A stretch of DNA of 64,000 bases. Origin: Spironucleus salmonicida. Its lineage: Eukaryota; Fornicata; Diplomonadida; Hexamitidae. Location: NCBI GenBank assembly GCA_000497125.2, contig CM035319.1, positions 550,001-614,000 on the forward strand, in the 5' to 3' direction. Position numbers and translations under genes: made by a program. The notes beneath the pieces were generated by a model. The model was not told the DNA's origin. It saw nothing but the letters and a program-made list of their open reading frames with translations, and did no database searches. Numbering within the stretch: position 1 is the first letter of the stretch; every line of letters begins with the position of its first letter. Shown piece after piece: positions 30,274 through 51,374 of the stretch.

Positions 30274-31851
30274 ATGTTAATTTTGCTGTCTGATGTAACT
30301 ACGTGTTTCGATGACACAGCAAAACTAATTGGAATCGTTTAATAGTTTTAATACAATATGAAAGTAGTAAATGCAAAACCATCCCCGCTTAGATGTTAGG
30401 CTTTTAATAATACTGAGTCAACCGCTACTCTTAGTTATATGGATAGTACGGCCAAGACAATAGAAACCAAATTCATATATTTTTCTGATAGACCAATTGA
30501 AATTTAATTCAAAAGTGTAGATGAAACTGTCTTTAAGACAATGGCGGCTTTATCTATTATTTCTTATTCAGTGAAGCTTTCAAACGAATTAGATGTCTCT
30601 GGAACCTTTTCATTGATTTAAAATACTTTAGTAAATACTTCAAATTGTTGGAATACCATGACTCTAAATTATTCTAGAAGTGGTGATTCCTCATACTTAA
30701 ATCTATCTGCGGATCCTAATGATTGTATTATCACAGACCCAACCGCGAAATTTTAGTATTAGGTCGATAGTGTTTGGTATAACGTAGATATAGCACCTTT
30801 AGCATCAGCACCTTCAGATTATGAAGGATACAAAACACCTTTCGAACATATTAAAACTAAGTTTTATAGAGTTAATTTGACAGACTCAGCAGATGATGTT
30901 AAGAAGTAAATAGAAGATTTTTACGTTTAATTTTCTAAAAATAGAGCAATAAAAATGCGACTATTTTTAGAATTTACATAAACTGGCTCTAAATTAAAAC
31001 AATAAATATTTAGCCCTATAAGCAATATAGTTACAGTTAGTAATGAATGTTAAACTGCAATTAGTGGATTTGGAACAATTTCATCAGAATTTTTTTAAGT
31101 AGTAGGTGACTTAACTAAGTTAAGTACTTGTATAAATAATATAGCTACGGTACAATCTTCTATGGTGCTAGGAAATATATAATTATATGATGATAGATTA
31201 TTCAGTGTTATGGTTGGAATGGCTACGCTTATGTTCAAATTTTCATCTCCCTAGGATGCAATGCTCGAGTTACCATCTTCCCCAAACGCGTTAGTTATCA
31301 TGAGCTTCCTCGATGCTGATGGAAAAGTGGTTCGCGAAGAAGCAAAAGAGTACACTATCAGCCTCTCGTGCTTCTACAAGATTAGCGCAATAATTTCATA
31401 CGCCGAGACCTGTATTGTATTCTTCCCGGTGCAGACAGATAGGTGCGTATAACTTTACTCAAAAGCTGCGAAGACTCGGTTCCAGCAGATTTTGCAGGCC
31501 GATGCCGCCACAGCAAGCCGCCTGATCTACCAGGTATACGAATTCACGATGCCGTTCGAGTCAGTCCCCTACTTCCGGACCTGCCTGCGCGAAAACACTA
31601 CCTCTATGAACACCACGTTTACGTTCTTCCAAGGCTCCTACAGCGCACGGCAGCACGCCTTCGTGGACACCCTGAAGACCTCGTTCCAGCCGCTCGTCAT
31701 GTTCAACAACGACTACGACTTCCAGTTCCAGTACGTGGTGGGAATCGACCAGACCAGCCTGATAGCGATGCCCGTCAGCATCATCCTGGTGGTGCTGTTC
31801 ATCACCGTGGGCACCGTGTTCGCGGTACTGATAGTCAGGCTCAGCCAGTGA
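30274..31851 (+). CDS. Membrane protein A: secreted-type single-pass protein, unknown family
   Basis: A 525-aa frame from ATG 30274 to TGA 31851, including TAA/TAG Gln codons. A short hydrophobic N-terminus (MLILLSDVTTCF) may be a signal peptide. The body is Ser/Thr/Asn-rich with scattered cysteines and N-x-S/T sites, and is probably extracellular. One membrane helix near the end (SIILVVLFITVGTVFAVLIV) leaves a tail of only about five residues. A paralog lies in inverted orientation at 50712-52296. From base 31189 the two copies are nearly identical, while the upstream two-thirds is clearly diverged. Composition switches from AT-rich to GC-rich near 31255, in mid-gene. Function is unknown; a cell-surface role is inferred. 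Confidence 0.75.
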
Positions 31852-32975
31852 GACTGTGATGTGACTTTTTTGTCTACTGGGAACTCCCGCCCGCGCTAAC
31901 CCAAAACCCTCACTTCTCGCCCCAGAGCCTCCTGCCCCAGCCGTACACCTGCGCCCGCACCATGTCGTCGCTGATCTGCTCCTTCACCCGCTGGTGCTCG
32001 CCCACGATGCCCTGGACTAGCGCGATGAGCTCCGCCTTCACCTCGCCGGTGAGCATCTCGCCCTTCTGGTAGCGCGCCTTGATCGAGTCCAGCCTCGCCT
32101 GGTCGTCCATGAACACCTCCAGGTACTGGACGCTGACGTCGATGGCGAGGTTGGCGCCGAACTCGCGCTGCTCCTCCACGGTGGCCCTGCCGCCGCTGAA
32201 CGCGAACTTGTTGATCTTCTTCTTGATCTGGGCTGCCGAGTCGTCCATGTATACCGCGCTCTGGGGATCTGATGCGGACATCTTGCTGTTCACGCCCTGG
32301 AGCGCCGGGATGAACGAGTTGTAGATCGTGGCCGGCTTCTGCAGGCCGAGCCTCGGGGCGATGTCCCGGGCCACGCGCCAGTAGGGCTCCTGCTCGTAGC
32401 CGCAGGGGATGAGGCAGAAGGGGGTGAGCTCGATGGGCGTCTGGCCCTGCTGGCTGAGCCTCCTCTGCTCGAACTGCTTCTTGGTCTCTCCCTCCTTCTG
32501 GGCGAGCGGGGCGATGGCCACGTCCGTCCTGGCGGCCCGCCAGGCCTTGCAGTACGCCTCCGTGAAGATGTGAGGGAAGGCCTGCGAGAAGGCGGGCTGC
32601 ATCTGCTTCGCGGGGAACGAGACGTAGCCCACGTTCTGGACGTCCGAGAACCCGAAGGCCCCGCGCAGCTGCGAGAGCGTGATGGCGCGCTCGAATACGC
32701 AGGAGAACTTGTATACGCTGCCGATGTACGCCGTGTTCAGGTAGATGAAAGTGCGCTCCTGGTCGAACTTGCAGGCCAGGATGTCCCTGATGTTGGACAG
32801 CGCGAACTCGTGGATCTGCTCGAACGAGAGCGTGGGGTCCCGCAGCAGCTTCTCGTCGTCCGTGATCTGGATGACCAGCGGGCAGCCGAACGCCTGCTGC
32901 AGGTACCGGCAGAAGTAGAACGGAATCATGTGGCCCAGGTGCAGGGCCGCAGAGGATGGGCCACGTCCGGTATAT
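31189..32975. repeat. Arm 1 of a 1787-bp inverted repeat
   Basis: This segment covers the 3' third of membrane protein A and most of the TrpRS gene. It recurs in reverse complement at 49588-51374 with the same length and no indels that I can see. I noticed four substitutions, including a CAG/TAG change that is silent under the TAR = Gln code. Homology stops sharply at both ends. The GC-rich composition covers almost exactly the same interval. Confidence 0.92.
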
Positions 32976-33196
32976 AGATATACTGGACGACCCTGTTCAA
33001 AAGCATCCAAAAATAAATCAAAATCACGATGGGAAAAATAAAGAAAACGTGATAATAATGGATGCGGTTTTGAATTCGTAAGTTTATAAAATCTATCAAT
33101 TATCTCTTAGTTCAATTCGGAAACTCCAAAATTTTCGATAATTTAATTTTTAGATAATGAAGCAGTGGCTGCTGTCGCATCGATCTCTTTTGACAT
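31910..33196 (-). CDS. WARS1: Tryptophanyl-tRNA synthetase, cytosolic eukaryotic type
   Basis: A 428-aa frame from ATG 33196 to TGA 31910. Class I synthetase motifs are present: YTGRGPSSAALHLGHMIPF (HIGH-type, residues about 75-93) and NSKMSASDPQ (KMSKS-type, about 304). IQITDDEKLLRDPTL is also typical of the eukaryotic TrpRS branch. It charges tRNA-Trp. The N-terminal ~70 codons are AT-rich with TAA Gln codons, then composition becomes strongly GC-rich at the inverted-repeat boundary (32975). It converges on membrane protein A with 58 bases between stops. The motif set is complete, so this is the functional copy in the window. Confidence 0.93.
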
Positions 33197-33239
33197 TTAG
33201 TTTAGGGAGTGGAAAGAAGATTATAATTTATATAATTTA

Positions 33240-33593
33240 TATAATAATAATTAATAAAAATGAAATCTATATTACTAAAATTATACTTACTTCTTCTTTC
33301 ACTGTAATAAGTTGAATAAATTTCAGTATTATAATTATTGCTAATAATTTTTACATTTTTATCTAGCTATTCTTTAAATAAAGGATCATAAGCAATCTCA
33401 GTTTCTGAATCTACTCCGCATAGATATTGCTAAAAATGCTAACAAAATTTTCCTTTACGATCATATCATGTGAATCAAATTAACAAATGTGTATCCTCTT
33501 TGGATCATTTTTGCACACTCTTAGATATAGAAATCGGGGATTAGAATTTTTACTATTTCTTTTAAACAGTATTATTACTTACAATATTAGCAT
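33240..33593 (-). pseudogene. Possible frame-broken small gene
   Basis: ATG 33593 opens a frame with protein-like content through SNPRFLYLRVCKNDPKRIHI and CQFDSHDMI. A one-base shift near 33464 is then needed to continue into GKFCQHFQQYLCGVDSETEI and an Asn/Tyr-rich stretch. Four cysteines and a histidine could suggest a small zinc-binding fold. Neither frame has a stop before the TrpRS start region. Decay or an assembly indel is likely. Confidence 0.3.
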
Positions 33594-33715
33594 TTTGTAA
33601 TCTATTTATTAATATAATAAAACTTTAAACTTAAGATTAATCTATTTTAGTCCTTAACTTAGTTATTTCCATTATAGTGTTTCCCATTAGCTTTTTTCAA
33701 CTATTAAATGCTATT

Positions 33716-33898
33716 ATGACCATAACAACAGGAAAATTATAATAAGAAGAGTATCTTTAAGATGAGTTTGATTTTGGGCTTACTTTAAATTTTTAAAACT
33801 TTACATCAGGGGAATAAATACTTTGGGGAACAGATTTATAAAAAAAAAATTCAAAGTTATACTGGTGGTTAGAAAATGACTATTGGAGTTGCTTTTGA
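33716..33898 (+). CDS. Very small ORF
   Basis: A 60-aa frame from ATG 33716 to TGA 33898. The sequence is acidic and aromatic-rich (for example SKLYWWLENDYW near the end). The frame is open further upstream with a hydrophobic stretch but without another ATG. Real coding is plausible from composition only; no family is recognised. Confidence 0.3.
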
Positions 33899-34697
33899 TT
33901 AGGTTAATTTTTTGATATATGATTATTTTTATTGTATAAATTAAATTATGATTTATGTATGACTTAAATAAAATAAAGCAAATTGACTGTTACACTGAAT
34001 ATTTACTGAATATTATATAATTGATATCTTTAATTAAAATTAAGTTATTTAAACTGCATAATCAAGAACTTCTACATTTGATAGATCATACTTTAGTTAA
34101 TAGTCTTCTGTTTTTTACTGATTAAACATATTGTTCGTAATTTAAGTAGTGAAAATAGGGCTGATTATAATTTAAAATATATTAAAATACTTAATATCGT
34201 AAATTGAAAATTAATATTTTTTTAATTTTATATAAGGTTTATAACCTATATTTTTAATATTATTTTCATTCAATAAAGCATTTAGGAATAACACAATTTT
34301 TATGAATGAAAAATACATCCTAATAAATTTTGTGCATAAATTAAAATTAAGTATCTGGGTTTATTTACCTCAAAAAGCTAGCACTATAAAGTAAAATAAA
34401 TAACATGAAACTAATCACTACATTAGGCTTTAAAATTAATATATACTTAAATTCAAATTTCATAGTCTATTATTTTTGCAATATTCATAATACTTATATC
34501 AAAATATGTAAAGAATTTATGAAAATACATAATAATTATTTTGATAAAATGTTTTCGCATACATTGCAGTATTGTGACATGTTATTCTAAACCGAGCCAA
34601 GTAATTTAGCAAATTCTCATAATTTTTTAATCTAACTGATACTGCAAATAACATTTAAATTGCACTATTATCATATATGGTTATAGAACCAAAATGT
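33899..34697. other. Intergenic AT-rich DNA
   Basis: About 800 bases. One AT-rich plus-strand frame (34405-34590) has the Ile/Asn/Tyr/Lys composition of random AT DNA and ends at TAA, which is not a stop here. I see no RNA gene and no clear repeat. Confidence 0.5.
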
Positions 34698-35618
34698 TCA
34701 CTGCAAATAATCAACGACATCTCCCTCAATGTTGAATACACTCTTAAAATCCTAACAGATATACTCACCACCTTCGTCTACCTTGTTCTACCGAATTAAC
34801 GTATTTATCTCGTAAATAATATCGCTGTACTTTCTGTAGACTACCTTTTTACCGTATATACCTTTCAACTCGTCAGAAACGCGTAATTCGTGCACAGTGC
34901 AGTTTCGCCGATGCTGGAAGTTCTTCTCATAGTCCTAAATGATTTTTCGCGTCAGCGGGTTCTTGGAGTTCGGGTTTGCCAGGCTCTCTGGGCACTAGCT
35001 GCTTTACAGAGCTGAACGCGGCCGTTAGCTCGAGTATTTAGGCCGTGGCTCAAACGACTCCTCAACGGCCTCTGGTAGATCGTTAGTATCCAGCTGCCTC
35101 CTTTTGACAACGCTAGAACTTTGCGGCTTTGCAGTTAATTTTTTCGATTCAATTTCAACTTTTCGCTCCTTTCTGAAGCATAAAAATTCCAAGCAATCTG
35201 CCATGCCCTAATCTATCCTATAAATACTGCTGTACGGGTCGTTGCGTGCCTTCCGGATTACGATCTGCGGCTTCTCACCGCTTTTTTCGCAGATGAGTTG
35301 CTCGAAATCGCGCAGCATTTCTGTCGGCTCTGCTCGCTTTTTCGCGGCGCTTCTGAGCGTTTCCAGCGCGTTCTGCGGCTTCTTCACCGCCACTTCGAAG
35401 AGGGCCTTGTATGCGTGCAGCTCCGCGTAGGGGGACTGCTGTGTAAGGTTCTGGAGCGAGTCGAGCGCGAAAATGAGCTTTTTTGAACGCAGGGCATCGG
35501 TTTTGATATCCTGTAATTTCAGAAATAGCTGGTGCGTCTTTACTGGCGAAAATTGCGAGGCATGCACGGCAGATGGCAGCGGGATCGTTTTAATTCGATC
35601 AAGAATTTGGGCTTGCAT
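34698..35618 (-). CDS. Hypothetical protein with helical N-terminal domain
   Basis: A 306-aa frame from ATG 35618 to TGA 34698; TAG at 35208-35210 is read as Gln, so the protein continues well past the apparent standard-code end. The first ~130 residues are helical and Ala/Leu-rich (YAELHAYKALFEVAVKKP), loosely like a PUB- or TPR-type helical bundle. A basic, Ser/Pro-rich linker follows (about 150-210). The last ~90 residues form a mixed alpha/beta region. The 5' half is moderately GC-rich. No family can be named with confidence. Confidence 0.65.
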
Positions 35619-36510
35619 TTTGGTATTACTGATAATTCATATATAATAATATATAAAATAATTTTGGAGAGGGTAGTGTAGAAAAAATAAAATGATGGGA
35701 TGTATAGATTGAAATATGGTGGATAGATGCTGGTTATATAAAGATATAGGGTATCAGTCCTTTTTCTTAGCTATTAGCTGTGAATCTTCAGATTGCTAGG
35801 CTAACTGTGTGCTCTGAAAATCTAAATAAATGTTCCTCATACATCTATATGAGTTTATAACAAAAAACACTAACATCGGGAGCTTTGCATAGCACATTTC
35901 ATCAAGATATGAAATATTTAATTTTACAATAGTAGATTCAGGGAAATAATTGCTAATAAAAAGCTTAAAATGGTCAATTTTAAAGAGTACTATCATTGTT
36001 AGCAAAATTTACATAAATGGATAAAAAATACCAATAGTAATACAGGAAAATGATATTAAAATATAACTAATAACGTATCTATTGAACTAAAGATCAGAAT
36101 AATTTTTAATATATGCAAATATAGCAGTTGGTATATTGCAGTTCATTTTGTTAGAAACCTATTGTGTATAGTAAATATATATATTAATTAATTATATGTT
36201 TAAAATACTAAGTATAGTAATTTAATATGATGATGCAGTTAAATTTCATTAATAAATCTTATTTACTGCATATTGATGATTAATGTTAAAATATAAATTT
36301 AAATGAACTTATTAGGAAGAAATTTTAGAGATTTATACCTAACTACGTGAATACAAATTTAATCTTAATTTGTAATGGTAAGTAATTTCACCTTTAAATC
36401 GAAGAATAAGCAGACTAGATCATGCAAAGTGATAAATTTATTGTAGCAGATTTGCTGTTACAAATAGAATGATAAATTTACTAGAATCCCAGTATTAATA
36501 AATCATGATC
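35619..36510. other. Intergenic AT-rich DNA
   Basis: About 890 bases between two minus-strand genes. Immediately upstream of the 34698-35618 gene is an AT core, ATATATAATAATATATAAAA (about 35640-35659). The rest shows no protein-like frame or RNA gene to my eye. Confidence 0.5.
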
Positions 36511-37602
36511 TCACTTAAATCTTTTACCATTATATTGCTTTTTATCGAACTTCCTTCTATAATCGTTATCCCAAATCTTATCACACTACTGCCTGCTCAT
36601 CCACATATCTACACTCGGCTATTCCATAAATTCTATTCCAGGAACTTTATCCTAGACGAAACTCTTAACTTTATCCAATACATCATAAAATTTTTTAACA
36701 TCCTCCCAGACTTTATCTCCATGTGATTTTGCATTTTCAAAGCTTTACCATGGCTTCTCTGCCACATAATGAATCAAAAAAACTTTTCGATCTCTTAAGT
36801 TGCCATCGTATACATTTTAATTACCTCTTAGTTAAAATTCACCCTTTTCGAATCGGTGAGCTAACCAAGGTATGCAGTTAAATTATCTAGAAACATTAGT
36901 CCAGTTTTCAATATTTAAAGAAATAAGTGTCTCATCAGGACCTGCATTAGGAATTCTATCATTCACATTTTATGAATAAAATCCACCATTAGAGTTATTC
37001 TTTATAGTTTAGATCAGCATATTGAATTATTCAATTGAAGGTGAAACACAGAAAAATGCCCCGGAAATACCATAACCATTGATTAATGCGTTATTTAATT
37101 ACTCATTATTAATTTTTATCCCACTTTCCATTCCTTCTTTATCCTTTCCTACTAGTGTTCCGAAAGGGGTTTGCAAGTTGAAAATATGTGAGAAATCATG
37201 TAAACAAAGCATATCCGCATCAAGAAATAGACACTTATCATATTAAGTAAGTAGAAAAATGTATAGCTTAGAAAAACAGCTTTTAAGCCAATTCTGATAA
37301 TTTTTAGCAAATCTAGGCCACTTGTTAAGATCTACAGGGAATTCTATTTTTGGAATAATAATTACATTAGCATATAGGTTCAATAACTATAGGGAATGTT
37401 ATGATAAATTTGAAGCAAAAACAATAAAATCGCATGAACTTTCTAAATGATTGGCTTTCAGAGATTAGAAAAGTGCAGCAGCTGATTGTGCATAAATATG
37501 TGTATCCATCACTAAGGTAGCAATAGAGAACTTTTTAGTAGGTGCGAACTCAAATGGTGTTGGCTTGATGTTATTAATATCAAAATCAGAGTAGTCAAGC
37601 AT
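36511..37602 (-). CDS. Glycogenin-like GT8 family glycosyltransferase
   Basis: A 363-aa frame from ATG 37602 to TGA 36511. The fold signature is clear: IATLVMDTHIYAQSAAALFQ near the N-terminus, then KLYIFLLTQYDKCLFLDADM with the DxD metal/nucleotide-sugar motif (DAD, about 128-130). Later come GYGISGAFFCVSPS, a region with PDETLISL, and VFLIHYVAEKPW (H-Y-x-x-x-K-P-W type sugar-binding end). This matches glycogenin and related GT8 enzymes that use UDP-sugars. The conserved order supports an active transferase. Whether it primes glycogen cannot be told. It lies 30 bases downstream of a same-strand small gene. Confidence 0.85.
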
Positions 37603-37632
37603 TTTTATTTATGAAGTGAAATCGTAATTCAA

Positions 37633-38106
37633 TCATTATATATCTCTATATGATTGATATGATTTTTCTAAAACGTCTGATAATTATTTCAAAAAAGTGA
37701 CGTAAATTTCAGGAGCTATTAGATTAACGGTGTCTTTACTCGCTAATGTAACTTAATCCTTTAATAAATTATAATTTCTCTGAATAATTTCAACTTTAAA
37801 TTCTGATTTCTTAATATTTAGGATTTTATATGGTTAGTCTTTTATGGTTTACAATTTTTAACATAAAATTATACCTGGGTATCCAAAGTACTTAATTGCA
37901 AGGATTGATGATCTTAAATCTAAAGTTGATACCAAAAATTCATAATCATCTCTAGTTTATGTTTTCAAAACTGTTGATAGAAAAAGAATATCTTCAATCT
38001 CTTAATCATTATATTGAATTTTTAATTCGGTAAAAATGCTATCGTCATTGTAATGGAAAATTTTTAATAGATGCGTATTAATTTTTGATGCTTGTTCATA
38101 ATTCAT
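37633..38106 (-). CDS. Hypothetical protein
   Basis: A 157-aa frame from ATG 38106 to TGA 37633. It is mixed alpha/beta with leucine-rich helices (DILFLSTVLKTQTRDDYEFL) and has no transmembrane segment. It sits directly upstream of the GT8 gene on the same strand with 30 bases between stop and start. That is very tight for separate promoters, but co-transcription cannot be shown from sequence. No family is recognised. Confidence 0.6.
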
Positions 38107-38169
38107 TAAGAATTAAAGATATTAAAATATATAAAATAAAATTGTATCATTAATAATTTTTCATTAAAA

Positions 38170-38529
38170 TCATTTCCTCTTTATATATCCAGCGTTTATA
38201 TTGCGTTCCACCTCATAGCTAAATTAACCAAAAGGTCGTCTATATTTTTAAGGATGCTCCAAAATACCTTAATTAAATGTCTATTCTTATACTTTGTTAT
38301 CCCTATGCGTAGTTAATAGTTTTTCCAGTAAATTATTATTTGTACTGTGCTGAGTTGTCTAGGTATATTGAGTATAATCCATTTTTTAGGCAACATCTCG
38401 TCTATCAAGAGTAGCTAGTCTTTCATTCATTGCAGATTCTTGTCTTTATCGCATTTATAAAGGGTTAGGCATATATCCTATTTAAGCTTATTTGACTAAT
38501 TATTCAGGAGTTGGTTAGGGCTTAGACAT
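38170..38529 (-). CDS. Small basic Gln-rich protein
   Basis: A 119-aa frame from ATG 38529 to TGA 38170. It is polar, with many Gln/Asn/Arg and a Tyr/Pro-containing C-terminus (HPQKYRRPFGQFSYEVERNI). Low hydrophobicity suggests an extended protein, as in small microtubule-associated or inner-lumen proteins, but that is speculation. Fifty bases separate its stop region from the aldo/keto reductase stop upstream on the same strand. Confidence 0.6.
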
Positions 38530-38579
38530 TTTAGCGGAAAAATAATTATATACAATTATATCTTAATTAAATTAATTGG

Positions 38580-39476
38580 TCAATCAAAAAGTGGGATTTG
38601 CCAATATTCAATTGGGTCACAGCTTCTCTCGTTCTTATTTAAACTGTTAATATAAATCATTTATTCTTCAGTAAGTGTGAACTCTAATTTGAAATTTGAC
38701 TTAATTCTTTCTTAGCAACTGGACTTTGGAATAATACTGTATTTATTAGTATTAAATCTTTGTAAATGCCATTTAAGTACAATCTAAGCTATTGATACAC
38801 CTAAACCTAGAGCAATTTCTTATAACTTAACATCATCTGAAAATTTTTAGATACCAGACACTCCCTAGTAGAATCCTCCTAACGGAGAATATGCCGTAAT
38901 ATGAAGTCCATTCTTTAAACAGAACTAAATTAAGCCTTCATTTTAGAAAAATGGGTGGGACTCGATTTGATTTACTAAAGGCTTAATACGGGCTCCAGAT
39001 AGTAAGTCATTAATGAGAGCAACATTGAAGTTAGATACTCCAATATGCTTAGTTAATCCGGTATCTACCAAGCTTTCCATGGCACGATATGTATCCATAA
39101 TTGAAAATCCTGACTCAAGCAATACTTCACCTTTATCGTTACGTGGCACAAGTTGTTTTCCATGTTAAAAACATACCGGCCAGTGAATTAAGAACAGGTC
39201 AACGTAATCAAGTTTTAGAGTCACAAGCTACTACTATAACTGCTATGTGACGTTAGAAGGATTATGATTTGTATTCCACAGCTTAGTAGTTATCCAGTAA
39301 TCTGATCTATCATGGCTTTAAAAGAATTCTTAAAACGCTTCACCAACTGCGGTCTCATTTTTATACACAAAAGCACAGTCGATGTGCTTATAACCTGTAT
39401 TCAATGCATTTAACACAATCTCCTTTGTGGCATCAAGAGGAGCCTAGTACGTTCCAAATCCGATCTGAGGGATCAT
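38580..39476 (-). CDS. Aldo/keto reductase
   Basis: A 298-aa frame from ATG 39476 to TGA 38580. The TIM-barrel enzyme has its catalytic tetrad in order: Asp33 and Tyr38 ([11 protein letters not shown]), Lys65 (WITTKLWN) and His98 (DLFLIHWP). Further family marks are [32 protein letters not shown] and the end segment SIIPKSS for cofactor binding. Such enzymes reduce aldehydes and ketones with NADPH. Several Gln codons are TAA/TAG, and without them the gene appears fragmented. It starts 78 bases from the divergent gene at 39555. Confidence 0.92.
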
Positions 39477-40763: not shown

Positions 40764-41666
40764 TCATACAAATAACGTGCTGCTAACATCGTAGTCATTT
40801 TAAATAATAGTTATGCTATCCGTGTTTCTTTTGGCAACCATAGGCCTCAGCTCGCCGAACCCACTGGAGATGGGCTTGTTGGAGGCGTCCTTGCGGCTGT
40901 TGGACTTGCAGCACACGATGGGCATCACGACAGCCATGACGAGCAGCAGGCAGATGCAGGCCAGCATGATGATCTGCGTGGTGGTGAACTTGATCTTCTG
41001 CTCGCCCCCGGTGAAGTTCGTCTCGATCTTGAGCGTGTCGCCGGATACGTAGGTCTCCTCGTACTGGAAGCGGTCGTTGCCGGTCGTGAAGATCTGGATG
41101 CTCTTCGCCTGCTTGAGGCCGTTCAGCTTGTCGAAGCAGGTAGTGGGGTTCACCTGCGCGAAGGACTCGGGGCAGCGGAGGGTGATGGTGCTGGTGCCGG
41201 CGACTGTGCTTGGGGCCGCGTGGTAGAAGTTGGATCCGAGCGTGATGAGGGAGCCCTTGGTGACGTCGATGCCGGCGGGGAAGGTGATCACGATGGAGTT
41301 GTCACTTTCTGAGGCGTAGTTGATCTTGACGCCGATCTCGGTCGCGCAGTAGGCGAACAGCAGCTGCTTTTTCGTAATAGTTATTTCAGTTGGAGCAGTA
41401 CCTGGTTGAGTAGTTATAGATTATTTTATATCCTTTTAAAAGTGTGCTGAAATTTTTTTTAAGTCGGTTTCACCAACACTCGCATCAAATTGAAATTTGT
41501 TTTCTCCTTACTTAAAGTCAAATTTATTTCCATCAACAGTTATTGAAAATTCTGATATACCTGTAATAGCAGAATCTATTGTAACAAATTGAATTGATAT
41601 AGTGGTGTTAGTAACCGTAACAAATCCCAGTGTTTTGTCCGCTGCAAAAAGAGCTAGGAACATCAT
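40764..41666 (-). CDS. Membrane protein B1: single-pass, unknown family
   Basis: A 300-aa frame from ATG 41666 to TGA 40764, crossing a TAA near the end (40800). Layout: short signal-like N-terminus (MMFLALFAAD), a Thr/Ser/Ile-rich beta-type ectodomain with few cysteines, one membrane helix (IIMLACICLLLVMAVVMPIV), then a CCKSNSRKD tail of about 40 residues. The paralog B2 at 48419-49321 has exactly the same length. The two share 537 bases without a difference I can see (41390-40854 here), whereas the N-terminal ~90 residues and the last ~30 are diverged. Function is unknown; a cell-surface role is inferred. Confidence 0.75.
40854..41390. repeat. 537-bp direct repeat, copy 1
   Basis: Matches 48509-49045 in the same orientation with identical length and no mismatch that I can find by eye. 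It covers the middle of membrane protein gene B1. Both edges are abrupt and coincide within about 30 bases with a switch from AT-rich to GC-rich sequence. Confidence 0.9.
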
Positions 41667-42090
41667 TTTTTATAAAGTCAATTTATAATTATTTAGTTAA
41701 ACATATATTATTTGACTCCACCAAAAACATAAAACTATAGAAAATAATATATTCTTTGTAATGAATAAATATAAACGTATGGCAAAAACTAATCTTTAAA
41801 TTTTAAGTTTATCTGGTTTTCTGGGGTAAAAATTGATTCTAACAAAAGTTTGTAAGTGCCTACTATAATCTAGAATTTTACAAATTCATCCTATTTACTC
41901 TAAATACGAAAATAAAACTTTACTTCTTACATATTTAATATACAATAAGAATATTTTTATTCACTAGAATAATTTGAAGCATTACCAAATCCCATTATTT
42001 GTACTTGCCAACTATCTTTATCAACCCTGATACCTGAATATAACTTTCAAATACCTTTCCCGCACCCTCAAAAACGCAACTCAAACCCGA
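41667..42090. other. Intergenic AT-rich DNA
   Basis: A 424-base gap between the B1 start and the stop of the SAPS-like gene, both on the minus strand. No protein-like frame is seen. GC content rises steeply from about 42055 toward the SAPS gene end. Confidence 0.4.
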
Positions 42091-44298
42091 TCACTGGAAC
42101 GCGCCCCACCCGAAGCCGAAGCCATCGCCCTCAGCGGCGCCACCTGCGCCGCCATCTTTTTTGGGATCCCCGCTAAAATCGCCCCAGCCGTCGCCGTTTC
42201 CGGCCTGCTGCTCGCCACCAAAACCGCCGAAAAAGTCACCGCCGCCGCCAAAGCCACCGAAACCCCCAAATCCGGCGTCAAAAACGCCTTTCCCCTTCTG
42301 CTTCTGTTTCTTCACATTCGTGTACTCAGCTGCTAGTCTGGCGTCCCCGAAAGTCTTCGGAATCTCGTCCTCAGGCTCCAAACACGTCTTGCTGAACTCG
42401 ATGAAAATCTCATTTGTAGTCAAAAAGTCCACAAAACATTTGTTAATTTCGCCGTATCCAGAGCTGATAATTTTGTTCAAAGCAGTCAGATTCTGTGGCG
42501 CGGCCACGTGCGCGCTGACGTTGTTCTGGATCAAACTGGGCTTGTTCTGCACGAATTTCTGCTTCTCCTCAACGGCAGCCTCGTCGGTCAATTTGACCGC
42601 CAGACGCAGCAGGGCGCGCGCTATCGTGATGAAGTACGTCTGCTGGCTGGTACGCGATTTGAAGGGTATGAAGTGCGTCATTTTGTCCCTCAGAAGGCTC
42701 ATAAAGTCCGTTTTTTCGATCAAAAAGCAGCTGATTTCCGTCTCGAAATCGCCGAATTCCGCGAGCGGAATGATGATCCTAGAGGCGATAAAATGCAGAT
42801 TTGAGTTCTGCTCGAACGCGCCGAAAAGTGATATAACCTCTTGGAGCAAATTCTGCTATAAGAACTTCTTTATTACGCTAACGACGCTGATGCAGAGCGG
42901 CACGCCAGAAACGCAAAAAGTGTCTCCCAGCGGAATACTCGACGGGCCTCCGGCGCCTGAATGCGCGCTGAGCTGAAGCTGGCCAAAGAGGCCCTCTTGG
43001 ACGATTTAGACGCTCTCCTCGACTGCCTGCTCGCTTTGGCCGAACCAGTCGAGTTTGGTCGACTTTTGAGGCTATTTCTTGTTGTTTTGGAAGTACTTGA
43101 AAACCGCAGTTTTCGCATCGGCAGAAATAGCAAGAATTCTTGCTATGAAATGGAGCATCTGGAACGTTCCGTAACCCACGAGGTTGGGCGGGGCTTGATT
43201 TCTGAGGAATCTGATGCGGCTCTGAATAGAGCAGAATTGATCCAAGAAAGCGGCGAAAACTGGAAGATTCTTGAATTCGAAATCGTCGATTTCTTGAATT
43301 TTCAAAATTGGGAAGTTTTCTATCTGCTTATTTTTGATTTCAACCTGTTAATTAGTGTATAATAATTGGTGCTGGAATTCTTTTCTTTTTTAGAGAGTTT
43401 CAAAGTTAACTTTCATGATCTCGTCTTTGTATGTATGGTAAAGTTACACTTCTTTTTAAATCATGAAGCTTACGCAGCAAACGACAAGATTGCTAGCATA
43501 ATGAAGCCTAAGCAGCTGTTCGTTTTTGATTTCACTAAAGAATAGAAAATTCGAAATTTAATTCAATTTAAGGATAACTATTTCTGATAAAAACGGAGTC
43601 TATTAAGAGATAATATTAGAGAGAAGTTCCGAGGAATTAGAAACTCCCTCTAAAGGTATTTCAAGGTTAGTAATGAAACTAGATAAAAGATCAAAAACAT
43701 TTGACTTAATACACAGTATTTATACCTGCTTGTTAATATCATCAGTACGAGACTTAGAATCTAATAAAAATACTTTGAGAGACTCTGAGATTTATTAAGA
43801 TATGATATGTTGAGCCCAAGATTTAAAGTAACCTAGGTTTTCAGTTAAATACGTCGCTAATGCAGAAACACGCTTTGACGAAGCTAAAATAGCAGTAATT
43901 AACTTCAAAAAGGCATTATTGATGTGAGGAGGTGCTAGAGTTGATGTAAGTGTTGGTGATGTTGTTAGTTTCTAAAGAGTTTCAAACGGAATAGCCAGAA
44001 GGTCTGATGTTGAGAGAATAGATTGAAGAACAGAGCGAAGAGCATCTGGATTAGCAAAAATTTCAATTGCACGCTCAGTGTGATCAGATGGCTTTTCCGA
44101 AAACATATGCTTCATTAAGCGACGAATTGTTGATGTTTTGACTAAATAGTCTAAAATAACAGGATTTTCAGAACGTATTTCAAAAGAAAGTGTTTTAACT
44201 TCTAATAATTTTTCTAAATTATCTTGCTAGACTAATTACTCGATAGACTATGATTATTAATCATTATCATACAGAGACCAATAGAGATTATTCGCCAT
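42091..44298 (-). CDS. SAPS-domain protein, PP6 regulatory subunit-like
   Basis: A 735-aa frame from ATG 44298 to TGA 42091. The N-terminus (YWSLYDNDQ, then a leucine-rich stretch, ENPVILDYLVKTSTIRRLMKHM, and an acid/helix block with AIEIFANPDALRSVL) follows the SAPS pattern of Sit4-associated/PP6 regulatory proteins. There the first helices bind the phosphatase and long HEAT-like repeats follow. The last ~65 residues are Gly/Phe-rich and disordered. The assignment rests on pattern and length and is moderately secure. The gene is AT-rich in its 5' half and strongly GC-rich in its 3' half (below about 43300), with a parallel shift in Gln codon choice. Confidence 0.6.
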
Positions 44299-44408
44299 TA
44301 TTTTAGAAGTGGTAGATTTAAATAGTTTAAAGTATATTATATGGTATACACTCAGTTACTTAAGTCAATTTGTTAATATAAATCATATTAAATCTATTGT
44401 CAATTAAA

Positions 44409-45305
44409 ATGAGTTGCTGTGGAAAACCGAAATAAGCAATTTATGAAGATGAACCTATTATTGGAGATCATTTTAAAACTTTTACATAGATTAAAGAATA
44501 TCTATATTAGACAGGAGTAAAATAATATGATGTAGTATTTTATTTAGACTTTTCAAGATCTAATTTACTAAACTAAGAGACTACTCTACTCCATACAGAT
44601 TCATAAACAAATCCATATTATATGGCACTAGAAGCCGTTGCACTCGCAGCAGCTTAATTGGATTCAGATTAAAAGTTTTTAGCCTATAGGTATGGATGTA
44701 CGGAGTCAAAACATTTACGGATTGTTCCTCTATATTAGGATTAAGTCTAATATGAAGGTATTGATGCACTATTGTGTGCATATAAGTAAGCTTGTCGCGA
44801 TGTTACATTTTCTGGACCCGTGTAGTTATCAAAATGTTTTGAAAATTCAATAGAATTTTCAAAATAAAATCCTGGGAAACATATTGTTTCTGTACTTATT
44901 ACTAATAGTTAATCTTAATCTGAGATAAAAGATATTAATGCACTTAAGTAAGCTAGTATGTATCCAATTTCTTTCTGTTGTTTTGGAGTTGGAAGAAAAA
45001 ATTTATAGACGCTAGAATTATATGACGATTTAAAAGGTAGAAATGTTGATAACTTCTAATTTGTAGATTTTGACAAGATCAAAAAGAAGGTGGTTAGATT
45101 AAGTGTGTCTGAGGCCAAACTTATTGATTTTATTGGTTGTTAAATTTTCATGGAGATTCCTTTTTAGGCAAAATAAATGCATTCAAAAGATTACTATAAT
45201 TTAGATAGAACTGTTATATTTACTGAGTACTCAGCTATTGTCACATCTAACCATGAAACTTAAGAAATACCCTTAAAATTTGAACATTTAGATATGCTAG
45301 AGTGA
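44409..45305 (+). CDS. Copine-type vWA domain protein 1
   Basis: A 298-aa frame from ATG 44409 to TGA 45305. It matches the copine vWA domain: VVFYLDFSRSNLLN (MIDAS-like, replacing DFTGSN), then NPYYMALEAVALAAAQLDSD, FLAYRYGC, the internal SGPVQLSKCFENSIEFSK, HIVSVLITN, ASMYPISFCCFGVG and FQFVDF near the end. There are no C2 domains, so it is a vWA-only form. Copines bind targets and membranes in a calcium-linked way, but without C2 domains membrane binding would need another means; the N-terminal MSCCG could be acylated (inference). It starts 110 bases from the divergent SAPS-like gene. Confidence 0.8.
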
Positions 45306-45528
45306 AGATAAATTTTATATGAGCTAATTTTAGAATATTATTTTTATGTTTATATATCTTAGCGGAAAATATAATATATTTTTTAAATCTAACATAAAAT
45401 AATCTTTACAATTAATTAATACAAATGTGGTACTTAGTATTATATTTGATTAAGTAAATTATTAAGTAAAATAATTATATGATGATTAGTAATTTATACG
45501 TAATTTAGGAAAATTTATCATCTCAAAA

Positions 45529-45858
45529 ATGAGGAAATATTATTGCGAAGTGACACCTCTTGAGAAATAATTATAACAGTAAGAGATTAAATATTAAATG
45601 GTGTAATAAAGTAAATCATAAGAGTGCCTACTGGCTCCACAGAACTTTCATTTAAGACATAATAAAAAATCATGCATACATATGAAAGATTTCATTTAGT
45701 AATCATTTGAAGAAGTTAACCCTCCTGAAAAAGATTCGCCTTTACAGACTTAGTAAGAGATTTAGGATGATTTCCGGAGTTTTTTATAAAATTTAAGTCG
45801 GCCAAAACCACGTAATATATCTTTACCAAAACCTATTCCATAGCCATTAATGAAGTGA
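45529..45858 (+). CDS. Small hypothetical protein
   Basis: A 109-aa frame from ATG 45529 to TGA 45858. It starts MRKYYCEVT, is Gln/Lys/Glu-rich in the middle, has scattered Cys and His residues (SQECLLAPQNFHLRHNKKSC) and ends in a Pro/Arg-rich stretch. The Cys/His spacing could hint at metal binding but fits no zinc-finger pattern I can name. It lies between the two convergent copine genes, 27 bases from the end of the second. Confidence 0.5.
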
Positions 45859-45885
45859 AAAATGATATTAAACTGAGTGAAATTT

Positions 45886-46776
45886 TCATTCTAAGCTTAA
45901 AAGCTAACTCTATTCAATTTTTTCTCTAATGAATTCCTACCCAAATTATACTTCTGCAAAAATATCACTATGCTCTTTAACTATACGACATGCTCTAAGC
46001 TCATCATGATATCCAAGATTCTAACAGCGCACATACTAATCTGGTAGCTCCATAAAAGTTTTACAACACAATATTTAAGCAAAATCTTTGCTTTGATACT
46101 TGCGGCTAAGCGTATCCAAATGGAAGAATTAGAAATTATCAAATTTTCGGCCTTCGCAATCATCTAAAAACTCTAATGAATCGAAATTAGCATCGCCTAC
46201 CCCAATGCAGCAAATAGAAATAGGGAAGTAGCTTGCCTAAATGACGGAGTTAAAATCTTTCGTTATAGACTATGACGGAGAGTTAGTAAGAATCACACCT
46301 ATAGTATGCTCTTTAAATTATTAGCAATGTGTAATCATACTATCGATACAAGTACTTATTTACGTTGGTCCTGATAGTATAGTGGTCTTAAGTGCGCTAA
46401 AGTAAGCCCCCATTAGCTCTTCTGACGATGTAAATTTCGCTTAATCACCTAATAGTGGAACTACTCTTTTATGCTTGGAATCTACACAACCAAAACGATA
46501 TGCATGAAATACTCTATTGCTATCTAGTTCAGCAGATGCTGTTAATATCGCTTTTAAGGCAATAATATAAGGGTTATTCAGTGAATCAGTATGCTAAAGG
46601 GATTTTTACTGATTTATGAGGTTAGAGCGTGAAAAATCAAAATATATTACAATATCTAATGGATGTACAGCGATTTATTTAAGAATATCTTTTATTTAAC
46701 TAAATTTGGTGAATCGATCTGGATTAATATCCAAATCTCCCAATGCTAGTTCCGGCTTAAAACATTGTTTAAACAT
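45886..46776 (-). CDS. Copine-type vWA domain protein 2
   Basis: A 296-aa frame from ATG 46776 to TGA 45886, collinear with the copine-like gene at 44409: IVIYFDFSRSNLIN, NPYIIALKAILTASAELDSN, FHAYRFGCVDSKHKRVVPL, TIGVILTN, ASYFPISICCIGVG and FFHLD. The two are diverged paralogs in inverted arrangement and, unlike the A and B repeats, show no identical tract. Both are vWA-only. This copy is AT-rich throughout. Confidence 0.8.
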
Positions 46777-46966
46777 TATAAAATATTATAACGCTCATAT
46801 ATGTACATAATAATATTAATTTGTGAAACTAGAAAAACTAAAATATAATATGCAAAGGTGAATTTTATTACTAATGCTCACTGTATTTTTATTAAATATG
46901 AATAACGAGCGTTTATTCTTAAATAAATAAAACAATAAATAAATAGCTGTATTAATGAATCATAAA

Positions 46967-47611
46967 TCATGGCTATTTTGGTAGCTTTTTAAGTATAAAA
47001 CAATATAAATTTTATCCCCATTAAGTATCCACTTCAATCCTTTTCTCTACTATTGTAATTGTAAATTTGTCTGGAAATGCTTCTTCTATCAGTTCATCCC
47101 TTTCACTATCAAAGGTTATCGAAAATATAACACCGTTATCTTATAGTTTTTCATACAATTATTCCAATGCTGCCATAAATGAGTCTAGAGGTGACTAAGG
47201 TGAAGCAATAACACAATCAAGACAACCCTTATCTAATATTAAATCATATTTGAATTTATCCTTAAAACATGTAACATCCTAAATTTCATATTCTATTTCA
47301 GGCCTAGTTTTCATATGCTCTTAAACTGCCTCCACTGCATTTTTCGAAAAGTCTATGCATTTAATGCATTTATATCCCTAATCGTAAAGCTAAAATGGGG
47401 TTCTAGACGTTCCGGCCCCAATAATCAGTATCTTCGCATCTTTTATCAAATACTCCTTTAATTCTTCTTCTAATTAGCATATCTAACAATAAAAGTCGAA
47501 AAGCTGCTAGTTCTGCTTATACCGGTCTTCCCAAAACTGACTTTGATGATACATTTTATTCAACAACTTATTATTATCACATAATATTAATATATTTAAC
47601 TTTTCACTCAT
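46967..47611 (-). CDS. METTL13/EFM4-type lysine methyltransferase-like protein
   Basis: A 214-aa frame from ATG 47611 to TGA 46967. Class I SAM-binding motifs are visible: YHQSQFWEDRY at the start, motif I as ILIIGAGTSRTPFQLYDQGY, an acidic end of strand 2 (KCIDFS), then YEIQDVTCF and YDLILDKGCLDCVIASP, which is the LDKGTLD signature of the METTL13/EEF1A-lysine-methyltransferase group. Substrates in that group are elongation factor 1A and related proteins; the target here is unknown. The upstream ATG (47611) is preferred to 47554 because the extra 19 residues look coding. It is transcribed away from the thioredoxin-like gene, with only 37 bases between the two start codons. Confidence 0.78.
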
Positions 47612-47648
47612 TATATATTATTCTCCAATTTAATATACACTGCACAGA
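47612..47648. promoter_or_regulatory. 37-bp space between divergent starts
   Basis: Only 37 bases separate the ATGs at 47611 (minus) and 47649 (plus). The segment is A/T-rich with a TATATATTATTCT core. Both genes must have promoter and leader sequences within this space or inside each other's coding region. Confidence 0.5.
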
Positions 47649-48395
47649 ATGGAATTCGAGCCGAGCCTCGTACCAGCCGGAATCAACTACGCAGCAAGCG
47701 CCCAACCCAGCAGGCCAACAACGGAGCTTCCGCCGATTTAGCAAAGCAAGTACACACGCGAGCAGTCGAACCGCGTGCGGCACGTCAACACCTTCGGGTA
47801 CAACAACATGCCGAACCGCTCGAACTCGATTCCGGACATCGAATCCATGGCGATTATCAACCAGAATCGCCCCTACGAGCCGGGGATGCCGATGGTGCTC
47901 ATCGGGCTCAACACGAACTCCGGAGACTGCAGAAACATCGCGCCGTATTTCCTGCAAATTCACAAGAAATTCTAGCGAATTTATTTCCTGCTGGTGTCGT
48001 ACCAGCCCTACGACAACATAATAAACACCTTTGCGAACATCCCGGAGCTGCTCCAGCTCAACGTCTCTCACGACGCGCACGGCTCATTTAAGGCCTTTTT
48101 GGCGCAGATGAACAAGCTTTCGATTCCGCATGTTTTCATCTTCAACCTCAGCCGGACGCTCATCTGGGACGGGCACCCCCAGAGCATGGCGCTGGGCACG
48201 AATCTGATGCGGCTGAACGGCCAGGTCGCTATCCACAACAACATGCGGGCGGTGTCGCCCAGTCGAGTTTAGGAGTGGCGGGCGCGTGGAATGAGCCCGC
48301 AACGCTGCAGGAGCGTCGCAACGACTTGGAGGAGCGACGAGGAGCTGTATGCCAGCAAAAGCATTGCGGAGCTCAAAACGATGAGGCTAGAGTGA
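47649..48395 (+). CDS. Thioredoxin-fold protein with altered CxxC (SGDC)
   Basis: A 248-aa frame from ATG 47649 to TGA 48395. After ~75 disordered residues comes a thioredoxin-like domain: MVLIGLNTNSGDCRNIAPYF aligns with the usual WASWCGPCR-x-x-x-P block, followed by RIYFLLVSYQ, an IPHVFIFNLS strand with the cis-Pro position, and LIWDGHPQ, a nucleoredoxin-like end. The first active cysteine is Ser, leaving S-x-x-C, so ordinary disulfide exchange is unlikely. The C-terminal ~50 residues are Arg/Ser-rich. The gene is GC-rich throughout and converges on B2 with 23 bases between stops. Confidence 0.7.
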
Positions 48396-48418
48396 CTTAA
48401 TAGAAAATATAGACAAAC

Positions 48419-49321
48419 TCAGACAAAAAGCATCGATTCCTGCTTATAAATGGTCAATTCGACATTGCTCTTGCTGGCACAGCTCATATCACTTTTGGGC
48501 CTAAGGCTGCCGAACCCACTGGAGATGGGCTTGTTGGAGGCGTCCTTGCGGCTGTTGGACTTGCAGCACACGATGGGCATCACGACAGCCATGACGAGCA
48601 GCAGGCAGATGCAGGCCAGCATGATGATCTGCGTGGTGGTGAACTTGATCTTCTGCTCGCCCCCGGTGAAGTTCGTCTCGATCTTGAGCGTGTCGCCGGA
48701 TACGTAGGTCTCCTCGTACTGGAAGCGGTCGTTGCCGGTCGTGAAGATCTGGATGCTCTTCGCCTGCTTGAGGCCGTTCAGCTTGTCGAAGCAGGTAGTG
48801 GGGTTCACCTGCGCGAAGGACTCGGGGCAGCGGAGGGTGATGGTGCTGGTGCCGGCGACTGTGCTTGGGGCCGCGTGGTAGAAGTTGGATCCGAGCGTGA
48901 TGAGGGAGCCCTTGGTGACGTCGATGCCGGCGGGGAAGGTGATCACGATGGAGTTGTCACTTTCTGAGGCGTAGTTGATCTTGACGCCGATCTCGGTCGC
49001 GCAGTAGGCGAACAGCAGCTGCTTTTTCGTAATAGTTATTTCAGTCGAAGCATCACCTGGTTGAGTAGTTATACTTAAGGTTTGTTCATTTGCAAAATGA
49101 TCTGAGATTGTTTTCAAAGGTACAGTACTCACACTCGCATCAAATTAAAATTTGTTTTCTCCTTACTTAAAATCAAATTTATTTCCTGCAATAGTTATAG
49201 AAAAATCTGCTATACCTGTAATGCTAGCAGCTATTGTAACAATTTGAATAGAAACCGTAGTGTTTGTTACTGTAGAGAACCCTATAGTGTTTGCATCGAC
49301 TAGTAAAGTAAGTAGCAGCAT
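48419..49321 (-). CDS. Membrane protein B2: paralog of B1
   Basis: A 300-aa frame from ATG 49321 to TGA 48419. Same plan as B1: MLLLTLLVDAN signal-like start, Ser/Thr/Ile-rich ectodomain, membrane helix IIMLACICLLLVMAVVMPIV, and a CCKSNSRKD tail. N-terminal ~90 residues differ from B1 at many positions (compare IGFSTVTNTTVSIQIVTI with LGFVTVTNTTISIQFVTI), and so do the last ~30, while the 537 bases between are indistinguishable. Both proteins end in LFV. The strong contrast between diverged ends and an identical GC-rich centre points to gene conversion and not to a recent whole-gene duplication. Confidence 0.75.
48509..49045. repeat. 537-bp direct repeat, copy 2
   Basis: Partner of 40854-41390, same orientation, 7.65 kb away. 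No differences seen by eye. Flanks diverge abruptly on both sides within the same gene. Confidence 0.9.
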
Positions 49322-49587
49322 TTTCTAAAATAAGGATCATTATAAATTATTTATTTTTCTAGATATAAAAAATCACTTTACTAAATTTAGTTTCTTCAGT
49401 TTTAAGATTGTTGTAATTAATCATATAATAGACAAGAATATAACTGAAATCTTTACTTTTTATTTTAGATGAATTATCTCAAATCTAAGTGTCTACGATA
49501 AATTTTAGGTGTCGTATTATCACTACTTATTATGCAGAATGCCGCTCAACTTTACATTCTAAGTATTACTGAATACACTATTTGATC

Positions 49588-51374
49588 ATATACCGGACGT
49601 GGCCCGTCCTCTGCGGCCCTGCACCTGGGCCACATGATTCCGTTCTACTTCTGCCGGTACCTGCAGCAGGCGTTCGGCTGCCCGCTGGTCATCCAGATCA
49701 CGGACGACGAGAAGCTGCTGCGGGACCCCACGCTCTCGTTCGAGCAGATCCACGAGTTCGCGCTGTCCAACATCAGGGACATCCTGGCCTGCAAGTTCGA
49801 CCAGGAGCGCACTTTCATCTACCTGAACACGGCGTACATCGGCAGCGTATACAAGTTCTCCTGCGTCTTCGAGCGCGCCATCACGCTCTCGCAGCTGCGC
49901 GGGGCCTTCGGGTTCTCGGACGTCCAGAACGTGGGCTACGTCTCGTTCCCCGCGAAGCAGATGTAGCCCGCCTTCTCGCAGGCCTTCCCTCACATCTTCA
50001 CGGAGGCGTACTGCAAGGCCTGGCGGGCCGCCAGGACGGACGTGGCCATCGCCCCGCTCGCCCAGAAGGAGGGAGAGACCAAGAAGCAGTTCGAGCAGAG
50101 GAGGCTCAGCCAGCAGGGCCAGACGCCCATCGAGCTCACCCCCTTCTGCCTCATCCCCTGCGGCTACGAGCAGGAGCCCTACTGGCGCGTGGCCCGGGAC
50201 ATCGCCCCGAGGCTCGGCCTGCAGAAGCCGGCCACGATCTACAACTCGTTCATCCCGGCGCTCCAGGGCGTGAACAGCAAGATGTCCGCGTCAGATCCCC
50301 AGAGCGCGGTATACATGGACGACTCGGCAGCCCAGATCAAGAAGAAGATCAACAAGTTCGCGTTCAGCGGCGGCAGGGCCACCGTGGAGGAGCAGCGCGA
50401 GTTCGGCGCCAACCTCGCCATCGACGTCAGCGTCCAGTACCTGGAGGTGTTCATGGACGACCAGGCGAGGCTGGACTCGATCAAGGCGCGCTACCAGAAG
50501 GGCGAGATGCTCACCGGCGAGGTGAAGGCGGAGCTCATCGCGCTAGTCCAGGGCATCGTGGGCGAGCACCAGCGGGTGAAGGAGCAGATCAGCGACGACA
50601 TGGTGCGGGCGCAGGTGTACGGCTGGGGCAGGAGGCTCTGGGGCGAGAAGTGAGGGTTTTGGGTTAGCGCGGGCGGGAGTTCCCAGTAGACAAAAAAGTC
50701 ACATCACAGTCTCACTGGCTGAGCCTGACTATCAGTACCGCGAACACGGTGCCCACGGTGATGAACAGCACCACCAGGATGATGCTGACGGGCATCGCTA
50801 TCAGGCTGGTCTGGTCGATTCCCACCACGTACTGGAACTGGAAGTCGTAGTCGTTGTTGAACATGACGAGCGGCTGGAACGAGGTCTTCAGGGTGTCCAC
50901 GAAGGCGTGCTGCCGTGCGCTGTAGGAGCCTTGGAAGAACGTAAACGTGGTGTTCATAGAGGTAGTGTTTTCGCGCAGGCAGGTCCGGAAGTAGGGGACT
51001 GACTCGAACGGCATCGTGAATTCGTATACCTGGTAGATCAGGCGGCTTGCTGTGGCGGCATCGGCCTGCAAAATCTGCTGGAACCGAGTCTTCGCAGCTT
51101 TTGAGTAAAGTTATACGCACCTATCTGTCTGCACCGGGAAGAATACAATACAGGTCTCGGCGTATGAAATTATTGCGCTAATCTTGTAGAAGCACGAGAG
51201 GCTGATAGTGTACTCTTTTGCTTCTTCGCGAACCACTTTTCCATCAGCATCGAGGAAGCTCATGATAACTAACGCGTTTGGGGAAGATGGTAACTCGAGC
51301 ATTGCATCCTAGGGAGATGAAAATTTGAACATAAGCGTAGCCATTCCAACCATAACACTGAATAATCTATCATC
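49588..51374. repeat. Arm 2 of the 1787-bp inverted repeat
   Basis: Reverse complement of 31189-32975, equal in length, with at least four substitutions and no indel seen. The arms are separated by 16.6 kb. At the left end homology begins at ATATACCGG, directly after an in-frame TGA. At the right end it runs into the diverged part of the A paralog. Confidence 0.92.
49589..50653 (+). pseudogene. 5'-truncated second copy of TrpRS
   Basis: From 49589 the frame matches TrpRS from YTGRGPSSAALHLGH to the C-terminus and is open to TGA 50653, with one CAG-to-TAG change that still reads as Gln. The first ~74 codons of the gene are missing. Directly upstream in frame is TGA (49583-49585), and no ATG precedes the HIGH-type motif; the first in-frame ATG (49634) lies after it. 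A protein started there could not be a working synthetase. Best explained as a fragment copied next to gene A' when the repeat arm formed. The open frame shows it is young. Confidence 0.85.

Follow-up and report, generated by a model that had tools for sequence, protein, structure and literature searches.

Spironucleus salmonicida is a single-celled fish parasite. The window described here, a 64,000-bp stretch of contig CM035319.1 (C4:550001-614000), has an overall GC of 0.333 and holds two pairs of paralogous genes, A/A' and B1/B2, each of which shares a GC-rich and near-identical tract (Table 1). The 2022 reference genome of the species has 14.7 Mb and a G+C content of 33.5% (PMC9509377). 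Both tracts were found where the initial annotation of the window had placed them. Tract A occurs in two inverted copies (31189-32975 against 51374-49588) with 4 substitutions per 1787 bp, and tract B in two direct copies that are identical in 50-bp windows at 40850-41349, show 4 differences per 528 bp at 40843-41370 and have diverged flanks. GC of the two tracts is 0.59-0.61, against ~0.2-0.4 in the adjoining DNA.

Table 1. Tracts, genes and an example island, in window positions
Feature	Position	Strand	Remarks
Tract A, copy 1	31189..32975	.	1787 bp; GC 0.59; inverted near-identical partner 49588-51374
Tract A, copy 2	49588..51374	.	inverted partner of 31189-32975
Gene A, membrane-type protein	30274..31851	+	AT-rich, diverged 5′ part; tract A holds the last ~220 codons
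Gene A', 527 aa, paralog of A	50712..52295	-	3′ part inside tract A copy 2
Tryptophanyl-tRNA synthetase (TrpRS), full length, 428 aa	31910..33196	-	convergent with gene A
Unique 5′ end of TrpRS, 73 codons	32976..33196	-	GC3 0.21; GC edge 32971
Truncated TrpRS copy	49588..50653	+	lies in tract A copy 2
Tract B in B1	40843..~41380	.	GC ~0.6; GC3 0.92
Tract B in B2	48498..~49035	.	direct repeat of B1 tract
Gene B1, 300 aa	40764..41666	-	codons 96-275 inside tract
Gene B2, 300 aa, paralog of B1	48419..49321	-	
Example island, no DNA partner found	42059..43255	.	GC3 0.66; one of its edges falls as a step within gene 42091-44298

Content and composition of the two tracts

In tract A, the 3′ part of gene A is followed by a spacer of 58 bp and then, on the opposite strand, by residues 75-428 of TrpRS. 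Its left flank is homologous between the copies (0.70-1.00 per 50 bp), with GC of 0.20-0.42 from 30300 on, and its right flanks share no homology. Each gene had been annotated as a shared tract with diverged, AT-rich ends, a description that does not fit tract A, which is not confined to one gene.

In TrpRS, GC content at third codon positions (GC3) is 0.21 in the unique first 73 codons and 0.95 after them; counted per 25 codons, it runs through 0.24, 0.24, 0.12, 0.80, 1.0 and 0.96 and is always at least 0.75 from there on. Residues 4-414 align to a solved TrpRS (3foc), the GC step included, and this alignment excludes a GC-rich cassette inserted into the gene. The second copy breaks off at 49588 and looks like a truncated pseudogene, because TGA occurs in frame at 49583 and ATG appears for the first time as codon 90. 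The HLGH motif (HIGH-type signature) is present in the tract copy of TrpRS, upstream of this ATG. Four differences separate the truncated copy from the full gene, all of them synonymous and all G/C against A/T; the full gene holds A in three, and the truncated copy holds T in one.

GC3 of gene A is 0.70 within the tract and 0.21-0.24 outside, and on the gene A side of the tract it climbs as a ramp, from 0.44 to 1.0 over ~200 codons. For B, tract and 5′ flank have GC3 of 0.92 and 0.18, respectively. Gln codons, which here include TAA and TAG, change in the manner annotated: Gln is CAG at 29/29 positions in the TrpRS part and 11/14 in the gene A part of tract A, and at 7/7 in tract B of both B1 and B2, and outside the tracts it is mostly TAA, TAG or CAA.

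Translational selection on the codons of well-expressed genes could in principle make parts of genes GC-rich, and codon selection in highly expressed S. salmonicida genes has been reported (PMC1805757). The same study, in the part available, states that these genes favour A+U-rich codons, unlike the G/C endings of Giardia, and that optimal codons leave genes of high GC3s (GC at synonymous third positions) unexplained (PMC1805757). An even codon bias along one expressed gene would be expected of such selection; GC3 is 0.21 vs 0.95 in TrpRS and 0.18 vs 0.92 in B, and expression hardly accounts for such a change within the one TrpRS gene. GC is also high in non-coding DNA and in the truncated TrpRS copy, and this explanation is considered extremely unlikely.

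Boundaries of GC were called with a two-state hidden Markov model (HMM) fitted to the window and 13 stretches of 10 kb taken at round coordinates (L028-L040), 194 kb together, with a low state of 0.27, a high state of 0.54 and 0.57 boundaries per kb. One of the stretches, L031, was selected for its A-family gene; 18 kb around one inverted pair and loci from searches complete the sample beyond the window. HMM boundaries are 58 bp and 4 bp off the ends of tract A, 10 bp and 12 bp off those of tract B in B1 and 12 bp off one end of tract B in B2, and a step fits at four edges, 32971 and 49593 in tract A and 41368 and 49023 in tract B. At the A and B1 ends, the GC rise stops 4-58 bp from the end of partner homology. 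Agreement of GC and identity boundaries within tens of bases, as claimed in the initial annotation, is thus found at these ends; it does not extend to the left end of tract B in B2 (48498), where the following gene is GC-rich too, which puts the GC boundary 525 bp away.

Ages of tracts and flanks

Synonymous divergence (dS) between the copies is 0.81 in the A flank and 0.00 in the tract, and 0.66 in the B 5′ flank and 0.02 in the tract. The flanks are old and the tracts young, and the tracts have therefore been homogenised by conversion. As for a third donor to both copies, DNA searches of the genome (14.47-Mb assembly, 37 contigs), scored for the best candidates only, turned up only two copies per tract; in the searches with the window and with L038, one first-look candidate each was left unscored, perhaps the query's own position.

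A near-identical segment between much older homologous flanks was found in two more pairs. In L010/L012, dS is 0.17 inside, against 1.88 to one side and saturation to the other; the GC-high segment begins at 1791 in both copies and identity from 1786, with GC3 of 0.59-0.60 inside and 0.20-0.33 outside. In L017/L018, the middle is saturated and the tracts have dS of 0.01-0.07, and GC3 falls from 0.61-0.75 in the tracts to 0.26-0.38 in that diverged middle. At all four places, A, B, L017/L018 and L010/L012, there is good support for ectopic conversion.

Pilon polishing can copy bases between repeats. The assembly was polished by Pilon with short reads (PMC9509377), and collapsed copies, or copies made identical, might accordingly be an artefact. 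Against this, the four TrpRS differences survive and the flanks differ, the composition of the tracts relative to outgroups cannot arise from polishing, and GC islands were seen already in 2007 in separately finished contigs (PMC1805757). The probability of an artefact is next to negligible.

Direction of base changes

A protein search of the genome from the window gave 5 matches for the B family and 30 for the A family; 20 of the latter were fetched as loci, and some belong together as parts of a single gene. Among 14 aligned members of the A family, 26 columns are invariant, a hydrophobic segment is present C-terminally, and several members occur as inverted near-identical pairs; Pfam and PDB searches with it gave no match. 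At the codons of tract B, GC3 is 0.15 and 0.18 in the relatives L005 and L006, against 0.92 in B1/B2, and in the 5′ flank it is 0.17-0.26 in all four. At the codons of tract A, the outgroups have GC3 of 0.21-0.36.

The initial annotation had proposed that AT→GC and GC→AT changes be compared, and the comparison gave an excess of AT→GC confined to the converting segments of A and B. Among shared B1/B2 changes, AT→GC occurred at 87/221 AT sites and GC→AT at 5/71 GC sites in the tract, against 11/85 and 7/21 in the 5′ flank; the 25-codon 3′ tail of B, with 1/6 and 3/4, has too few sites. For A, polarised against L010 and L012, the corresponding counts are 105/285 and 22/87 in the tract against 41/352 and 104/228 in the flank. 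Since the outgroups are distant, the polarised states are not strictly ancestral, and the control is the contrast between tract and flank (Fisher p of 5e-4 for B and 6e-20 for A).

Young differences within a GC-rich tract run in the opposite direction. Polarised by L024, which is itself GC-rich and leans towards GC as ancestral, the in-tract differences of L020/L021 comprise 17 GC→AT, 3 AT→GC, 2 other and 8 unpolarised, and with 33 columns outside the tract added the counts are 24 GC→AT and 3 AT→GC (binomial p of 0.001 against an expectation of 0.6). Mutation alone would therefore act opposite to the GC gain, a bias seen in this one pair only. A set of three copies on C4 has 4 variable sites, and the deviating base is A/T at three of them and C at the fourth. 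From the ratio of 24:3, mutation alone would lead to GC of ~0.15, and reaching GC3 of 0.92-0.95 against it would take a scaled bias of ~4.2-4.7; comparison with the flanks (GC3 of 0.92-0.95 vs 0.18-0.21) gives 4.0-4.3.

A regional mutation bias, due to a replication, transcription or repair domain, would make islands in which the identity of the copies is a coincidence. Coding and non-coding GC indeed shift together, as argued in 2007 (PMC1805757), and non-coding DNA here has GC of 0.53-0.71 in partnered islands vs 0.25 in low segments (small samples, 48-553 bp). The preponderance of GC→AT among differences within one GC-rich tract (17 vs 3) and the agreement of GC edges with homology ends both speak against this explanation, which is judged very unlikely.

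Tracts A and B are probably long-running zones of ectopic conversion between old paralogs, in which repair favours G/C over A/T. Biased repair is the best explanation for the GC of A, B, L017/L018 and L010/L012; biased mismatch repair in heteroduplex DNA, with a scaled strength of ~4, would raise GC. The initial annotation, which had proposed GC-biased ectopic conversion for both pairs, is supported by the dS contrasts, by the AT→GC excess in tracts and not in flanks, by the two further mosaic pairs, by edge agreement in more duplicates obtained through protein homology or from the sampled stretches, by the AT-directed young differences of one pair and by the published genome-wide GC contrast of duplicated regions (PMC9509377). 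For tract A, one event may have run beyond the homology of the A genes, taking part of TrpRS with it into the A' locus. The intact TrpRS beside gene A suggests that the A locus was the donor and the A' locus the recipient. The functional gene and its truncated copy would since have evolved in concert, and the codon usage of TrpRS would thereby have shifted, starting at codon 75.

Edges of other duplicated tracts

Divergence was compared with GC in 14 duplicate pairs. The correlation is strongly negative in A/A', B1/B2 and L017/L018 (rho of -0.71 to -0.87) and amounts to -0.46 in L024/L025, with circular-shift p of 0.037 to 0.10 for these four; it is weakly negative (-0.24 to -0.33) in L010/L011, L014/L015 and L020/L021, about flat in L014/L019, L022/L023, L045/L046 and L047/L049, and undefined in L050/L051, which has zero differences.

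The ends of hand-compiled tracts were compared with random placement, an end being counted as lying on a GC edge at p<0.05 in both copies; this two-copy test is not fully independent and is optimistic, because the copies share sequence. Among 8 GC-rich tracts (GC 0.46-0.72), 10/16 ends lie on a GC edge and 6 do not, and among GC-poorer tracts (GC 0.29-0.45), 0/4 do. Given as bp off in one copy and the other, the ends on an edge are those of L024/L025 (1/10 and 6/6), L020/L021 (15/28 and 25/26) and tract A (58/57 and 4/5), the right end of tract B (12/12), and one end each of the L038 inverted pair (1/3), the C4 8.4-kb inverted pair (11/77) and the second L017/L018 tract (L017/18b; 35/34).

The C4 inverted pair lies at C4:791001-815000 (L052, L022, L053, L023 and L054) as an 8.4-kb repeat, 99.9% identical, with GC of 0.61; part of it recurs in a third copy from C4:813324, whose start is 3 bp from a GC edge. 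L020 and L024 have a short common block of 266 bp with GC-rich DNA on both sides, which adds little.

Islands without a partner and points against

Partners of islands were sought by comparing 8001-64000 with the genome and the window with itself. The window contains 12 islands of at least 400 bp, 4 of which contain a partnered tract. Coding GC3 is available for 7/8 of the others and is 0.55-0.70. By eye, a called gene end is no more than 32 bp away from 6/16 edges of these eight islands, and some of the islands may therefore be GC-rich genes between AT-rich spacers. For a shorter island at 63314-63673 there is an overlapping 82% match at C4:620922.

Of three islands in the sampled stretches that were picked for search because their GC3 reached 0.8 or more, those in L035 and L037 have partners. 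L035 has two 99% partners, whose ends (6420-6831) miss its GC edges by 12 and 7 bp, and the three partners of L037 run to at least one query end. L038 is partnered as well, by an inverted pair within itself (partner of 6120-7167) and a 1252-bp partner on C7; 6120-8713 of this stretch had been taken as partnerless until the inverted partner was found inside it. The DNA search had missed this partner, and partners inside a query stretch can therefore be missed. GC3 values of partnered and unpartnered islands overlap without clean separation (9 vs 11 hand-entered values, Mann-Whitney p of 0.017); 4/5 high-GC3 islands and 0/7 lower-GC3 islands, few in number and picked after GC3 was known, are partnered in a Fisher comparison.

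Several results weigh against GC-biased conversion or restrict its reach. First, in the window no DNA partner was found for 8/12 islands of at least 400 bp by the searches described above, and in the genome search none was found for L032:8072-9677 (GC3 0.93-0.94). The very GC-rich island around the latter, L032:6377-10000 (GC 0.68, GC3 0.94), is the strongest exception to the model. Second, near-identical duplicates can be AT-rich, as in L050/L051 (GC 0.34), L045/L046 (0.32), the L029 inverted pair (0.29), L014/L019 (0.34) and L047/L049 (0.35); these may be recent copies. Third, the correlation is positive in L041/L042 and L042/L043 (0.44 and 0.28), with the GC-rich parts more diverged. Fourth, the ends of L017/L018 match GC edges only within 16-250 bp, and a 41-codon outer flank has GC3 of 0.68 in L017 and 0.12 in L018. 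Fifth, in L024/L025, L020/L021, L038 and the C4 inverted pair there is edge agreement only and conversion is not demonstrated, because the flanks are mostly or entirely non-homologous. Finally, A and B are polarised against distant paralogs, ~41-51% identical as proteins, and L024, which polarises the young differences, has the GC lean noted above.

A strict reading of the initial annotation, by which every GC island has an identical partner, is not supported, given the islands without partners and the AT-rich identical duplicates; the search for partners of other islands succeeded for L035, L037 and L038 and failed for the eight window islands and L032. Genome-wide, a published GC contrast of duplicated regions favours a tie between GC and duplication, to which the same two classes are contrary.

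GC might also have come first, the islands being sharp-edged segments of other origin that conversion or duplication prefers, stopping at their AT-rich edges. Partnerless islands are common, many of them with step-like edges, and AT-rich DNA adjoins the ends of GC-rich tracts, as such an origin would have it. On the other hand, the ends would have to hit GC edges repeatedly within ~1-12 bp in both copies (L024/L025, the TrpRS end, the right end of B and L038), yet AT-rich stretches duplicate too, and both outgroup paralogs of B are AT-rich at the same codons. This order of events is regarded as unlikely.

Additional observations

Two diverged neighbouring proteins with a common DFSRSNL-type motif are encoded at 44250-45305 (+) and 45886-46776 (-) and look copine/VWA-like by eye only. 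Among 51 called genes of the 13 added stretches, GC3 shows a modest rise from 5′ to 3′, the last fifth exceeding the first in 36 (mean 0.389 to 0.452, p of 0.003); in the eight later stretches alone the count is 18/28 (p of 0.10). A first small count, with GC of 0.454 at the ends of convergent genes and 0.343 at tandem ends, hinted at a tie between islands and convergent gene ends; in the added stretches it was the modest gradient that held. L016:601-1200 is an extended ATT-type repeat devoid of G and C, of which the letters were read for 601-780, the remainder being judged from GC and self-matches.

Relation to other systems and implications

In mammalian histones, Hsp70 and avian HINTW, paralogs that exchange sequence reportedly gain GC, and S. 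salmonicida shares this feature. Unlike in those multicopy genes, the gain here is sharp within single genes of an AT-rich diplomonad, with third positions near saturation (GC3 0.92-0.95), and it pairs a full synthetase gene with its own truncated copy. In grasses, where the same question was raised for homeologous conversion, the outcome was the opposite, the review, as far as its available part goes, concluding that conversion does not account for GC elevation (PMC3924838).

In S. salmonicida itself, sharp G+C shifts that take in GC3s and non-coding DNA together were described in 2007, and neither mutation nor selection was said to explain them easily; the pattern is the one seen here, but in the available part of that study it was not linked to duplicates in the genome itself (PMC1805757). 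GC-rich duplicated regions are already published: GC is 44.7% in duplicated regions and 30.7% elsewhere, and gene conversion was suggested in the expansion of surface proteins (PMC9509377). Such regions are thus common to the 2022 paper and the present analysis, while the GC bias of conversion, the polarised changes and the edge analysis are, relative to the accessible part of that paper, found only here (PMC9509377). The literature on Spironucleus or diplomonads and gene conversion, judged mostly by title, yielded no account of GC-biased conversion in Spironucleus.

The results point to GC-biased conversion as one cause of the GC islands of S. salmonicida. A wider proposal would make all of them a base-sharp record of ectopic conversion, in which tracts with a living partner stand near GC3 of ~0.95, partnerless islands are decaying fossils of partners since lost, and codon usage is set piecewise by present and past duplicates. 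Step-like edges and intermediate GC3 suit this proposal, the L032 island and islands that span genes do not, and it is put forward tentatively, as possible but rather doubtful.

GC-biased conversion has generally been inferred from averages over many genes. Here, single genes step from GC3 of ~0.2 to ~0.95 near the end of homology, and outgroup paralogs give the direction. If this reading is true, conversion tracts would be readable straight from the sequence, a compositional puzzle open since 2007 may have an answer, and a truncated copy could impose a new codon usage on an essential gene, TrpRS.

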